Assembly: GCA_030590945.1 (NCBI GenBank)
Contig: JAUVBY010000010.1
Span: forward strand, 1-36,334
Direction of reading: 5' to 3'
Length of the DNA: 36,334 bases
Source: Gammaproteobacteria bacterium
GTDB lineage: Bacteria > Pseudomonadota > Gammaproteobacteria > Arenicellales > Poriferihabitantaceae
Position numbers and translations under genes: made by a program. How positions within the stretch are numbered: the stretch's first letter is position 1; each line of letters begins with the position of its first letter. Shown here piece after piece: positions 27,297 through 32,264 of this stretch. The notes under the pieces are model-generated. The model ran no database searches, was not told the origin of the DNA, and saw nothing but the letters and a program-made list of their open reading frames with translations.

Positions 27297-27305
27297 AATG
27301 GCTAT

Positions 27306-28154
27306 CTAATTACCGCCCTTCTCCTGCCGGTGATATTTATGCTGCAAGACCATCGCATCATGACGGTTATCCGTTTTCCGCTCCATATAGGTTTTATTGA
27401 AATAGGTCGGGTAGTGCAAGACTCTAAACGAGCGATCCTGCACCGAGGTCAGCACCCCGACTGCCCGACTAAAAAAATCCGCGTGATCCATTCTTTTTAA
27501 ATTATCGTCCCAACCGACCAGACGAATTTTATCGCTTCGGCCTATATAAAAATTAGGTACTTTAAGGTGAACCGGATACGGTCCTATATAACTCCCCGGT
27601 TCGTGTAACGGTGTTCTTCCGGTTTCAAAGACACCGGTATGAGAATAATCATGCACTATTCGCAACGGCAGATAAATAACCTCACCTGCCAAAATATCGA
27701 TTTGGGGGTGCGTTTCCATCGCCTGAAACGCATTTAATAACTCAGTGTGACGGTTAAATACAAAATCATCATCCAGGCACATCATGTATTTCGTGGTAAC
27801 GGCGCTTAAACCGGCGTTACGACCCGCAGACACACCACTATCGTACGGTAGAATAATTGTTTCAACGCCCGCCAGCTGACGGGGTTGTTTGCTGTCATCG
27901 ATGACAATGATTTTCAAGGTCGGGTACAGCCTTTTTATACTTTTCACCAGACCGGCTAATTTTTTTGGCCGTTCGAAGGTTTTGATAACCGCTGTAATTT
28001 CGTCCAGCTCAGGCGCCCGGTTGGGACGATGAAACAGCGCATCCAGCACACGCTCGAGCAGCAATGCTGTATTAACCAGAATTTCATAGCCAAAGGCCAC
28101 CACATATTTGAACCTGCCCGTTCTGGAATTTTTTAAAGTTTGAATAATATTCAT
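27306..28154 (-). CDS. GT-A glycosyltransferase resembling the GM2/GD2-synthase (GT12) type
   Basis: 282 aa. After an amphipathic N-terminal ~45 residues (VVAFGYEILVNTALLLERVL) comes a GT-A nucleotide-sugar fold: ITAVIKTFERPKKLAGLVKS, IIVIDDS, GVSAGRNAGLSAVTTKYMM, and a DxD metal motif in CLDDDFVF (D128-D130). Later, VPNFYIGRSDKIRLVGWD and DHADFFSRAVG recall the acceptor region of beta-1,4-N-acetylgalactosaminyltransferases. From memory of those families, this arrangement is closer to GT12 than to ordinary GT2 enzymes. It lacks a signal peptide and stands alone, convergent with lipA. A role in surface glycan or glycolipid assembly is inferred; sugar and acceptor are unknown. Confidence 0.75.
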   Translation of the reverse strand: MNIIQTLKNSRTGRFKYVVAFGYEILVNTALLLERVLDALFHRPNRAPELDEITAVIKTFERPKKLAGLVKSIKRLYPTLKIIVIDDSKQPRQLAGVETIILPYDSGVSAGRNAGLSAVTTKYMMCLDDDFVFNRHTELLNAFQAMETHPQIDILAGEVIYLPLRIVHDYSHTGVFETGRTPLHEPGSYIGPYPVHLKVPNFYIGRSDKIRLVGWDDNLKRMDHADFFSRAVGVLTSVQDRSFRVLHYPTYFNKTYMERKTDNRHDAMVLQHKYHRQEKGGN

Positions 28155-28240
28155 GGTGTTTTTTAACGACTTATCCGTATACGATTCTCATAGCATGCTT
28201 AGCCTGCTCCTGGAGCCACCAATAAAAATCCTGCCCTCTA

Positions 28241-28272
28241 TGTAAATATTTACACTGCGGATTATTTACATA
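28241..28272. promoter_or_regulatory. Palindromic operator-like element with three ATTTACA half-sites
   Basis: TGTAAATATTTACA (28241-28254) is a perfect 14-bp palindrome. A further ATTTACATA (28264-28272) mirrors the TATGTAAAT beginning at 28239. The last half-site contains TTTACA, which could be a -35 box with CATACT (28289-28294) as -10, placing RNA start near 28300. It sits between divergent genes (glycosyltransferase, membrane peptide). Binding protein unknown. Confidence 0.5.
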
Positions 28273-28279
28273 GTTTTAG

Positions 28280-28318
28280 CCACTCACTCATACTAAAGTT
28301 CCCGTAGGGAACGAGTGG
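28280..28318 (+). other. Leader RNA hairpin upstream of the membrane peptide
   Basis: Inner stem GTTCCC-GTA-GGGAAC (28298-28312) and flanking CCACTC (28280-28285) / GAGTGG (28313-28318) could stack with a one-sided 12-nt bulge. A structured leader or part of the promoter; function unknown. Confidence 0.4.
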
Positions 28319-28391
28319 AACATGCCTTTGACCATCCGGTCCCGCGAGACGGAATATGCCGGTTCGTTAATTGATGTCAGTGGAGGATAAA

Positions 28392-28490
28392 ATGCTTGAT
28401 TTATTAATTAAAACACTGTTTTGGTGGTTCCTTATCGGAATGCTTCTGTTTGTCACCATGGGTTACATTATCTCTAATACAACGATGTGA
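28392..28490 (+). CDS. Predicted 32-aa single-pass membrane peptide
   Basis: This ORF is too short for the track. It begins with ATG at 28392 after a near-perfect ribosome site (GGAGG, 7 bases upstream) and ends with TGA at 28490. The peptide is short with a hydrophobic core, FWWFLIGMLLFVTMGYII, flanked by polar ends (MLDLLIK and SNTTM), a clear single transmembrane helix. Size and shape resemble small accessory subunits of membrane complexes (CydX- or KdpF-like in style, but no sequence match that I recognise). Upstream lie a palindrome and hairpin; downstream lie more hairpins. The strong ribosome site and hydrophobic pattern argue for a real gene; no homology support is available. Confidence 0.55.
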   Translation: MLDLLIKTLFWWFLIGMLLFVTMGYIISNTTM

Positions 28491-28570
28491 GTCAGAGCAT
28501 CAGGCTCCTTACATTCGCCTGATAGATACGCGACTCATCTTGTCGGAAACTCATCGTTGGTTTCAGACAA
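28480..28570 (+). other. Structured RNA region with two hairpins and a possible pseudoknot
   Basis: Hairpin A: ATCAGGC / GCCTGAT (28499-28505, 28517-28523) with an 11-nt loop and an outer GAGTC/GACTC. Hairpin B: TTGTCGGAAAC / GTTTCAGACAA (28540-28550, 28560-28570), 10 of 11 pairs. The 9-nt loop of B contains CATCGTTG, complementary to CAACGATG at the peptide gene's 3' end (28480-28487). No T run, so not an ordinary terminator. Could be a regulatory RNA or a 3'-UTR element. Confidence 0.4.
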
Positions 28571-28658
28571 GCCGGATATGCCAGACATATTTATAGTGGC
28601 TTGCCCTATTTAGGCCGGAAACGATTATGCTGGAAAAGCAGATACCAGGAAAGTATTT

Positions 28659-29345
28659 TTAGCGCCGCAGGGGAAATTCTTTTAGCAGCGTGATGGTTCG
28701 GCCATCCACGCGTAGATAATCACCGATTTTTAACTCTTTCATAATTATGGAAACCATTTCACGGGAAGAACCGACCATCTCCGCTAGTTCAGTCTGCGTA
28801 ATACCGGTGATTTTATGCCCGGTGTCGCTTTCTTTCGCCAACGCAAGCAGCGTGCGTCGCAACCGCCCGTAAACATCTTCCAACGCCATAACGCAAATAC
28901 TCTCAATGACCTGGCGCGTACGTTGAGACAAGGTTTCAAGGAATAGACACATAAAATCAGAGTGTTTTTGAAACATTGCATACACCCTATCGTGCTCAAT
29001 CTCTAAAACAGTACAATTTTGCAGGGCTATGATATCGGCCGTGGTGGCCTGGCCGTTGATCATCGATAGTTCTCCGAACATATCTCCTGATCGCAGTACG
29101 GCAAGGGTTAGATGTCTTTTATTTTCACAATGCGTGACTTTCATCGTGCCTTTGATCAGTATATACAAAAGCCCGCTGTTCGTGCCTTTGGCGAGCACTA
29201 ACTGCTCCCGTTTATACCAACGAATTTTCCCCTGAGCATACAATTCTTTTTGTATGTCTGGTTCAAGTCCGGATAAGAATCTGGCAGGCCCTGAATCCGC
29301 TTCAGGCCCCGACTCCACATCCTTAGCTAATGCGCTCACGACCAT
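28659..29345 (-). CDS. Crp/Fnr-family transcriptional regulator
   Basis: 228 aa. An N-terminal cyclic-nucleotide-binding-type beta roll (~25-140) is followed by a dimer helix and a winged helix-turn-helix (ITQTELAEMVGSSREMVSIIMKEL, ~175-205). The recognition helix keeps SRE, as in CRP, suggesting a CRP-like TGTGA-type site. The phosphate cassette retains FGEL, but the CRP Arg82-Ser83 pair is replaced by Thr-Thr (GQATTAD), so binding of cAMP as in CRP is unlikely. No cysteine cluster for an Fnr-type iron-sulphur centre is seen. The start has GAGG 9 bases upstream. It lies alone between the structured 28.2-28.6 kb region and acnA, on the same strand as acnA. Confidence 0.9.
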   Translation of the reverse strand: MVVSALAKDVESGPEADSGPARFLSGLEPDIQKELYAQGKIRWYKREQLVLAKGTNSGLLYILIKGTMKVTHCENKRHLTLAVLRSGDMFGELSMINGQATTADIIALQNCTVLEIEHDRVYAMFQKHSDFMCLFLETLSQRTRQVIESICVMALEDVYGRLRRTLLALAKESDTGHKITGITQTELAEMVGSSREMVSIIMKELKIGDYLRVDGRTITLLKEFPLRR

Positions 29346-29553
29346 TTAACGCCACCTCGTACCGTTCACCGCTTTATACTACCGAATATCTGTATTTTTT
29401 GACCGTTACGATATTAGCAATTCATCGCTCGCTGGTCAACGGTTTGTAGATCGCCCGGCATGCATCACCTATTCAAACGTTTAAGGCTCTTTAATTCCAT
29501 ATTGCTCGAACTATAAGGAATAATGTTCGTCGATATTTCTAACAAAATGTATT
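29346..29553. other. Intergenic stretch upstream of the Crp/Fnr gene
   Basis: About 200 bp between the acnA terminator and the regulator start. On the minus strand a TATAAA lies ~30 bp before the regulator ATG without a good -35. I see no ORF or RNA gene here. Confidence 0.4.
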
Positions 29554-29592
29554 AAAAAAGGTTGGCAAAGCCAGCCCTCCGGAAACCTTTTT
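29554..29592 (-). terminator. Terminator after acnA
   Basis: On the minus strand AAAAAGGTT pairs with AACCTTTTTT around a 20-nt internal part that itself contains GGC-TTT-GCC. It starts 12 bp after the acnA stop and ends in a T run. Confidence 0.7.
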
Positions 29593-29603
29593 GAGCCTGA
29601 GAA

Positions 29604-32264
29604 TCAGCCTGCCAGTTGCCGTAATACGTAGTGCAAAATGCCACCATGGTCATAATATTCCCACTCTTTGGGCGTATCAATGCGTACTTTCGCGGTGAAG
29701 GTTTTCTGCTCACCCGCCTGATCAGTCACGGTAATGGTTACATTCTTCGCGCCCGCAATCACGCCTGTGATATCGTAGGTTTCCGTGCCATCCAGTTTCA
29801 ACGTCTCGCGCGTATCGCCTTCATTAAATTGTAAAGGCAACACGCCCATACCCACCAAATTCGACCGATGAATTCGCTCAAAACTTTCAACCAGTACCGC
29901 CTTCACGCCAAGTAATTTAACGCCTTTCGCCGCCCAATCTCTGGAGGAACCCGTGCCATACTCTTTACCACCGATGATCACAAGCGGTGTATTAGTCTGA
30001 CGGTAACGTTCAGCGGCATGAAAAATACTCATCACTTCACCATCAGGCTGATACACGGTCCAGCCTCCCTCGGTGCCGGGCGCCAGTTCATTGCGTAAGC
30101 GTATATTGGCAAACGTACCGCGCATCATCACTTCATGATTTCCTCGTCGCGACCCGTAGGAGTTAAATTCTACCGGGTCTACGCCGGCCTCTGAAAGATA
30201 TGCACCCGCCGGAGAATCTGCTTTTATCGCACCGGCCGGGGAAATATGATCCGTAGTAATTGAATCACCCAACCTGGCCAAAACACGCGCGCCGTTTATA
30301 TCGCCAAAACCCGGCGGTGTAGCCGTAATACCCTCGAAGTATGGCGGCTGCTGGATGTAACTCGAATCTTTGCTCCAGTTGAAACGATCCGATGCAGTTG
30401 TTTTAACCGCCTGCCAGTGCTCGTCACCTTTAAACACATCTTTGTATTTTTCAATGAATATATCCCGTGATAAGGCCGCATCAATCGCTGCATTCACTTC
30501 TGCCTGTGAAGGCCAGATATCACGCATATACACATCCTGACCATCGTTGCCCTGTCCCAACGGTTCGGTGTCTAAATCAATGCTCGTGGTACCGGCAAGC
30601 GCATAGGCCACAACCAACGGCGGTGATGCAAGAAAATTCATTCTAACTTCAGAATGCACGCGACCTTCAAAGTTTCGATTTCCTGATAGCACCGAACTGA
30701 CTACCAGATCACTTTTGTGAATCGCTTCGACAACCGGTTGAGGCAATGGGCCGGAATTACCAATACAAGTCGTACACCCGTAGCCGACGACATCAAAACC
30801 CAGAGCCGCCAGAGGCTCGATCAAACCGGCATTTTTAAGATATTCCGTCACCACTCGTGACCCCGGTGCGAGCGAAGTCTTCACCCAGGGTTTAACCGAT
30901 AGACCCAACTCAATGGCTTTTTTCGCGAGCAGGCCCGAAGCCATAATCACGCTGGGATTGGAAGTATTGGTACAGGAGGTAATGGCTGCGATAACGATAT
31001 CGCCATCGTGCATATCTACATCACGGCCATTGATCACCGTTGATGCACTGCGAGGAGTATCGCTGCCTGAAATTTCTGCCTGCGCCGCAAGTATCACCTG
31101 CTTTGCGTTTATAAGGTCTATCCTGTCCTGGGGACGCTTGGGACCGGCGATACATGGTTTGACCGTCGACATATCAAGGCTCAGGGTATCGCTATAATCC
31201 GCTTCGGCCGCGCCGCTCTCACGAAACATGCCCTGCGCCCTGGTATACGCTTCAACCAGCGCGATCTGTTCTTCGCTGCGACCGGAAAGATACAGGTAAT
31301 CGAGCGCAGCCTGATCGACCGGAAATATGCCGCAGGTTGCACCATACTCCGGCGCCATATTGGCGACGGTGGCCTGGTCTGCCAACGACAGATCGTCAAG
31401 CCCATCGCCGTAAAACTCAACAAATTTACCAACTACACCCTTCTCTCGCAGCATTTCAACAATGGTTAATACCAGGTCGGTCGCCGTGACACCTTCTCTA
31501 ATTTGCCCGCTTAACTTAAACCCTACCACCTGCGGTATTAGCATAGTAATTGGCTGGCCCAGCATCGCGGCTTCGGCTTCGATACCGCCCACACCCCAGC
31601 CTAATACACCCACACCATTAATCATCGTGGTATGTGAATCGGTACCGACAACCGTATCAGGGTACAGGCTAAATGAACCATCTGCCTGTTCACGCTTAAA
31701 AACCACCTGCGCAAGATTTTCCAGGTTGACCTGATGCACGATACCGGTGGAAGGCGGCACCACCCGAAAATCTTTAAATGCCTGTTGGCCCCACTTCAAA
31801 AAGGCGTAGCGTTCCGCATTGCGTTCATACTCGCGCTCAGTATTTTGTGTCAGTGCGTTACTGGTGCCAAAATTATCCACCATCACCGAGTGATCAATTA
31901 CCAGGTCTGCCGGGCTCAATGGGTTGATTTTATCCGGGTCTCCGCCTAAATCCTGCATGGCGTCGCGCATGGCGGCCAAATCAACCACCGCCGGAACACC
32001 AGTGAAATCCTGCATGAGTACACGTGCTGGCGTGAAAGCGATTTCGATAGTCGGTTCAGCGCTGGCATCCCAATTGGCCAGGGCGAGAATATGCTCACGA
32101 GTGATATTCTCACCGTCTTCAAAACGTAGTAAGTTTTCCAGGAGGATTTTTAAGGAATACGGTAGCCGATCAAGCTTTGCTTCATTTGCCAGCGCATTAA
32201 GCGAGTGGTATTGATATTCAGTTCCTTCAACGGTAAGCGTTTGTAATGCATCAAAAGTATTCAT
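29604..32264 (-). CDS. acnA: Aconitate hydratase A
   Basis: 886 aa, AcnA/IRP-type aconitase (E. coli AcnA 891). It interconverts citrate and isocitrate in the TCA cycle using a 4Fe-4S cluster. Cluster cysteines are in [13 protein letters not shown] and [15 protein letters not shown]. Other motifs are [33 protein letters not shown] and the C-terminal swivel segment [15 protein letters not shown]. It is not the AcnD type associated with the methylcitrate route, consistent with the methylmalonyl-CoA route for propionate seen here. A perfect TATAAT on the minus strand (32302-32297) lies ~33 bp before the start. An inverted repeat ATGTA...TACAT overlaps the promoter region. Confidence 0.96.

Follow-up and report, generated by a model that had tools for sequence, protein, structure and literature searches.

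The window analysed here is a stretch of 36,334 nucleotides from a gammaproteobacterial genome. It carries, in order, gcvT, gcvH, gcvP and a lipoyl-synthase-like gene on the plus strand, a glycosyltransferase gene on the minus strand, a small open reading frame (smORF) on the plus strand, and genes for a Crp/Fnr-type regulator and aconitase on the minus strand. The smORF runs from ATG to TGA over 99 nt and translates as MLDLLIKTLFWWFLIGMLLFVTMGYIISNTTM*, a peptide of 32 residues; the initial annotation had called a frame of this length at exactly these positions. Together, the glycosyltransferase gene, the smORF and the crp gene form a block of about 2.3 kb (27300-29600) at the lipA-acnA junction. 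The features of the region are the following:

27306-28154, minus strand: family 2 glycosyltransferase gene, divergent from the smORF, within the block; absent at the junction in the nearest relative
28238-28273, no strand assigned: perfect 11-bp inverted repeat CTATGTAAATA-N14-TATTTACATAG, resembling an operator and situated between the smORF and the divergent glycosyltransferase gene; found in 0.4% of gap shuffles
28265-28294, plus strand: weak sigma-70-like promoter from a promoter scan (TTTACA, 18 nt, CATACT; 9/12)
28367-28411, plus strand: predicted hairpin around the Shine-Dalgarno (SD) site and start codon, with 28367-28375 pairing with 28403-28411 (folding, z -0.93)
28382-28386, plus strand: GGAGG, SD-like site
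28392-28490, plus strand: candidate ORF for a 32-residue peptide with a single transmembrane (TM) segment (translation, Kyte-Doolittle, AlphaFold2)
28488-28571, plus strand: two predicted tandem hairpins starting at the stop codon, a possible transcript 3' end with no clear T-run
28659-29345, minus strand: Crp/Fnr-type regulator gene, convergent with the smORF, within the block; best relatives in the order 27-36% identical
29604-32264, minus strand: aconitase gene (acnA), from the window gene list

Reading frame and flanking DNA

The GGAGG motif was present as initially annotated, but its spacer to the ATG is 5 nt (ATAAA) and not seven. An alternative in-frame ATG at 28374, which would give a 38-residue form, is not preceded by an SD site. 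The proposed 18-residue hydrophobic helix was borne out, with a best Kyte-Doolittle (KD) mean of 2.19 over 18 residues and an AlphaFold2 model consisting of a single helix over residues 2-31 (pLDDT 96). The smORF is present in a single copy and overlaps no other gene. Its codon adaptation of 0.61, reached in 7% of non-coding-like simulations, lies between that of the genes (0.668) and the non-coding expectation (0.535), and is thus mildly gene-like; its GC3 is 35% as against 54% in genes.

The flanking DNA had been described as regulatory-looking, which holds in part, for the inverted repeat (arms 28238-28248 and 28263-28273) and for a 14-bp palindrome within it, TGTAAATATTTACA at 28241-28254, found in 3.7% of gap shuffles. 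The repeat overlaps the -35 element of a promoter match that is weak, the five promoter-like sites of the region are within chance (3.4 expected), and the leader folds no better than its shuffles (z -1.40 and -0.93). The tandem hairpins beyond the stop codon were calculated at -29.2 kcal/mol (z -2.65), and equally stable structures were found in 2 of 200 shuffles. Repeat and hairpins lend weak support to a putative discrete, regulated transcript; the repeat could equally serve the divergent glycosyltransferase gene. An Rfam search of the smORF region gave no match.

Several candidate regulators of the repeat were considered and rejected. The TyrR box has the form TGTAAA-N6-TTTACA, and the spacing in the repeat is wrong for it. 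An operator regulon was discarded as well: with up to two mismatches allowed, TGTAAATATTTACA has 12 matches in the genome and the reversed control 9, and the matches other than the one in the repeat do not lie upstream of genes in any consistent way. LexA/SOS control was dismissed on the ends of the site, which reads ATG-N10-CAC and lacks the outer CTG and CAG of CTG-N10-CAG; the promoter of this genome's own lexA, which carries the box CTGTATAAATATACAG, served as reference. A lexA gene with this canonical box was located at L073 (1057-1695, minus strand) and at L086, and a RecA-like gene of SulA/ImuA type lies 3' of lexA on contig C177. A RecA family search of the assembly returned only a sub-threshold match, beside lexA, and the assembly thus appears to lack a true recA.

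Synteny and conservation

Both neighbours of the smORF are on the opposite strand, one divergent and one convergent, and hence it stands alone on its strand and is not in an operon with a membrane complex. It had been proposed that the peptide is an accessory subunit or regulator of such a complex; this proposal is unsupported, as no membrane-complex genes adjoin it, the neighbours being the glycosyltransferase and Crp/Fnr genes. The GC content of the block is about 43-47%, compared with about 48-55% for most of the flanks, and the intergenic DNA around the smORF has 42% GC.

The syntenic junction was located through the lipoyl synthase gene and was found in one relative only, the nearest one (G002, locus L109; LipA 85% identical). 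In that genome, lipA adjoins acnA at a distance of about 0.5 kb, and the spacer has no similarity to the window; the glycosyltransferase gene, the smORF and crp are all absent. Relative to G002, the block is, as read from this comparison, inserted at the junction or lost from it. Homologues of the glycosyltransferase occur in G001, where the surroundings differ and the adjacent gene is precorrin methyltransferase-like (as read from the translation), and in G142, where the homologue is split; no relative of the smORF was found beside either.

The homology search in relatives that the initial annotation had called for found a homologue of the smORF in none of the genomes searched. Protein searches covered 24 genomes of the family, 109 of the order (E≤1) and 369 of the class; those of 60 relatives, the order and the class returned the window itself, helices of long proteins (chiefly one DctM-like protein) and a few unsupported short frames. 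A DNA search of the 60 relatives returned nothing, and nothing significant was obtained against plasmids, phages, PHROGs, NCBIfam, Pfam, PDB and, in a degenerate scan, viral contigs; the only Pfam match was FeoB_C, sub-threshold at E 0.12. Lack of conservation in close relatives had been named in advance as evidence against a gene, and this is what was observed as far as the comparison reaches, G002 being without the whole block. Since G002 lacks the entire block, rather than carrying a decayed ORF, there is room for a species-specific gene. Either the smORF was acquired or arose recently, or it was never a gene; both fit the comparison because no genome has the block without the smORF or the reverse.

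The Pro-SMP criteria were applied as a test of a genuine bacterial small membrane protein; they comprise an ORF of 60-180 nt, a membrane segment of 15-30 residues, tblastn conservation outside the species (30 hits by default) and RNA or ribosome evidence of expression (PMC10903887). The smORF falls within the length range at 99 nt and within the membrane-segment range by its hydropathy and modelled helix, and it shows no conservation outside the species in the family, order and class genomes, plasmids and phages.

When the neighbourhoods of Crp homologues in the order were screened for small ORFs, one family (f2) gave a different picture. In five of its genomes, an ORF for a single-TM peptide of 38 residues, preceded by an SD-like site, lies about 130 bp downstream of a crp homologue and on the same strand; these Crp homologues are 33-36% identical to that of the window. 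The ORFs, all co-oriented with crp, are:

L134: 2255-2371
L135: 2256-2372
L137: 1241-1357
L138: 2255-2371
L139: 1227-1343

The peptides follow the pattern MxDYRPEDHIAPGRYVAGSW...VVISxSxV and match nothing in Pfam or NCBIfam. Their dN of 0.07-0.21 against a dS of 0.25 to above 2 gives a dN/dS well below 1, which indicates purifying selection; the frame thus probably encodes a genuine small protein that annotation has passed over. L137 holds a further tandem copy, at 965-1069, which has diverged. Like the smORF, the f2 ORF is a small single-TM frame with an SD site, and its neighbour is a Crp-type regulator from the same broad family; it is, however, co-oriented with crp and conserved, whereas the smORF is convergent with crp and an orphan. 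The two show no sequence similarity (score 17-24, with 17-88% of shuffles as good). Recovery of the f2 peptide indicates that the approach finds a conserved small gene where one exists, and the smORF is without such support.

Competing readings: a chance frame, a toxin or a gene remnant

The frequency of such ORFs was estimated with dinucleotide shuffles, scoring ATG ORFs of at least 20 residues with a 5-nt SD and a KD of at least 1.8, criteria that were fixed after the smORF had been seen. When the smORF's own 504-bp gap was shuffled, 0.2% of the shuffles gave such an ORF; when every gap of the window was shuffled, 0.5% of the sets did. The genome background was taken from 363 kb of the same genome, which contain 340 small intergenic ATG starts; an SD of at least 5 bases precedes 23 of them, and 24 open a frame with a TM-like segment. 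About 1.6 ORFs with both are expected if the two are independent, and 2 were seen. The only other one in this sample is a 63-residue hydrophobic intergenic ORF with a 6-base SD (L097, 4240-4431), possibly a real small gene. The combination is thus unusual locally, but roughly one or more per genome is expected by chance, and SD and hydrophobicity alone are no proof at the genome scale.

The strongest competitor of an orphan gene is accordingly a chance reading frame, in which AT-rich intergenic DNA happens to hold a lucky GGAGG-ATG and a hydrophobic frame and the repeat belongs to the glycosyltransferase promoter. The absence of conservation, the low GC3 and the genome-scale count all speak for it; the rarity of the combination in shuffles of the window, the hairpins after the stop codon and the codon adaptation lean the other way. 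This explanation is a serious one, somewhat short of an even chance, and ranks close behind that of an orphan gene.

A type I toxin-like peptide would be one particular form of a real gene, with a structured leader and with its ribosome-binding site (RBS) held in a hairpin and masked by an antisense RNA. TisB, IbsC and LdrD are small hydrophobic type I toxins, and TisB has 29 residues (PMC6550523). The smORF shares with TisB, Ibs and Ldr its shortness and hydrophobicity and possibly an RBS hairpin, as one is predicted, and an antisense promoter-like sequence (minus strand, 28495-28467, inside the ORF) is followed in the right order by a terminator-like hairpin (minus strand, 28312-28298). Such promoter and terminator matches, however, occur at chance numbers, and the RBS hairpin is no more stable than those of shuffled leaders. 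Unlike these toxins, the smORF has neither paralogues nor a supported antisense RNA; it lacks a LexA box and matches no Rfam family, and the NCBIfam and Pfam scans revealed no homology to a known toxin. A toxin is therefore improbable.

Descent from the gene of a larger membrane protein, with a helix of the TRAP transporter subunit DctM as one instance, was rejected and is the least probable explanation of all: residues 6-30 align at about 32-44% with a DctM-like helix in dozens of genomes of the order (E 0.04-0.2 per genome), but these helices are orthologues of one protein, so that one chance event is counted repeatedly, the translated frame beyond the smORF bears by eye no further likeness to DctM, and Pfam offers only the sub-threshold FeoB_C.

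A candidate orphan membrane peptide

The reading preferred here, given about an even chance, is that the smORF is a species-restricted orphan gene whose product, 32 residues long, spans the inner membrane once. With the toxin case included, the smORF is rated slightly more likely than not to be a translated gene. A real small gene that had been missed would fit the start signals, the hydrophobicity and the repeat upstream. An orphan gene is supported by the rarity of the SD and TM combination in window-gap shuffles, the rare inverted repeat, the hairpins after the stop codon, the mildly gene-like codon adaptation, the confidently modelled helix, the single copy and the freedom from overlap. 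It is weakened by the lack of homologues, the absence of the block in G002, the low GC3, the chance frequency and the weak promoter. At best, the smORF encodes a small protein confined to this species, and it may be a chance reading frame.

AcrZ, CydX, KdpF and YohP are enterobacterial small membrane proteins with one TM helix and short polar tails, and adjacency to partner genes is not required for AcrZ. CydX is 37 residues long (PMC4325964), and AcrZ is paired with AcrB (PMC7267776). The smORF peptide resembles these proteins in length class, in its one helix and in its short polar tails; those proteins, however, are conserved in multiple genera, and several have a partner complex, whereas the smORF has neither a homologue nor a nearby partner gene, its neighbours being lipA, the glycosyltransferase gene, crp and acnA, with no kdp or cyd genes among them. 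It matched none of the curated Pfam and NCBIfam models for KdpF, CydX and AcrZ. A likeness to the AcrZ sequence, equalled by 1.4% of shuffles, is a lead only.

If the smORF is an orphan gene, a monocistronic transcript would begin near 28301, from a promoter overlapped by the inverted repeat as operator, and GGAGG would drive initiation at 28392. The peptide would insert in the inner membrane as one helix, and the lone Lys7 near its N-terminus suggests an N-in/C-out orientation. Characterised single-TM small proteins act by binding or perturbing membrane proteins; by analogy, this peptide, if active at all, might do so through helix-helix contacts. It is further conceivable, though unlikely, that the young, species-specific gene came or arose with the glycosyltransferase-Crp block, under a new operator of the TGTAAATATTTACA type, and acts as the membrane effector of the block.

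The smORF is a case of how a good SD site and a hydrophobic frame can convince without any comparative support. If it is translated, it would add one more orphan to the small membrane proteins, a class routinely missed by annotation, and would alone change little.
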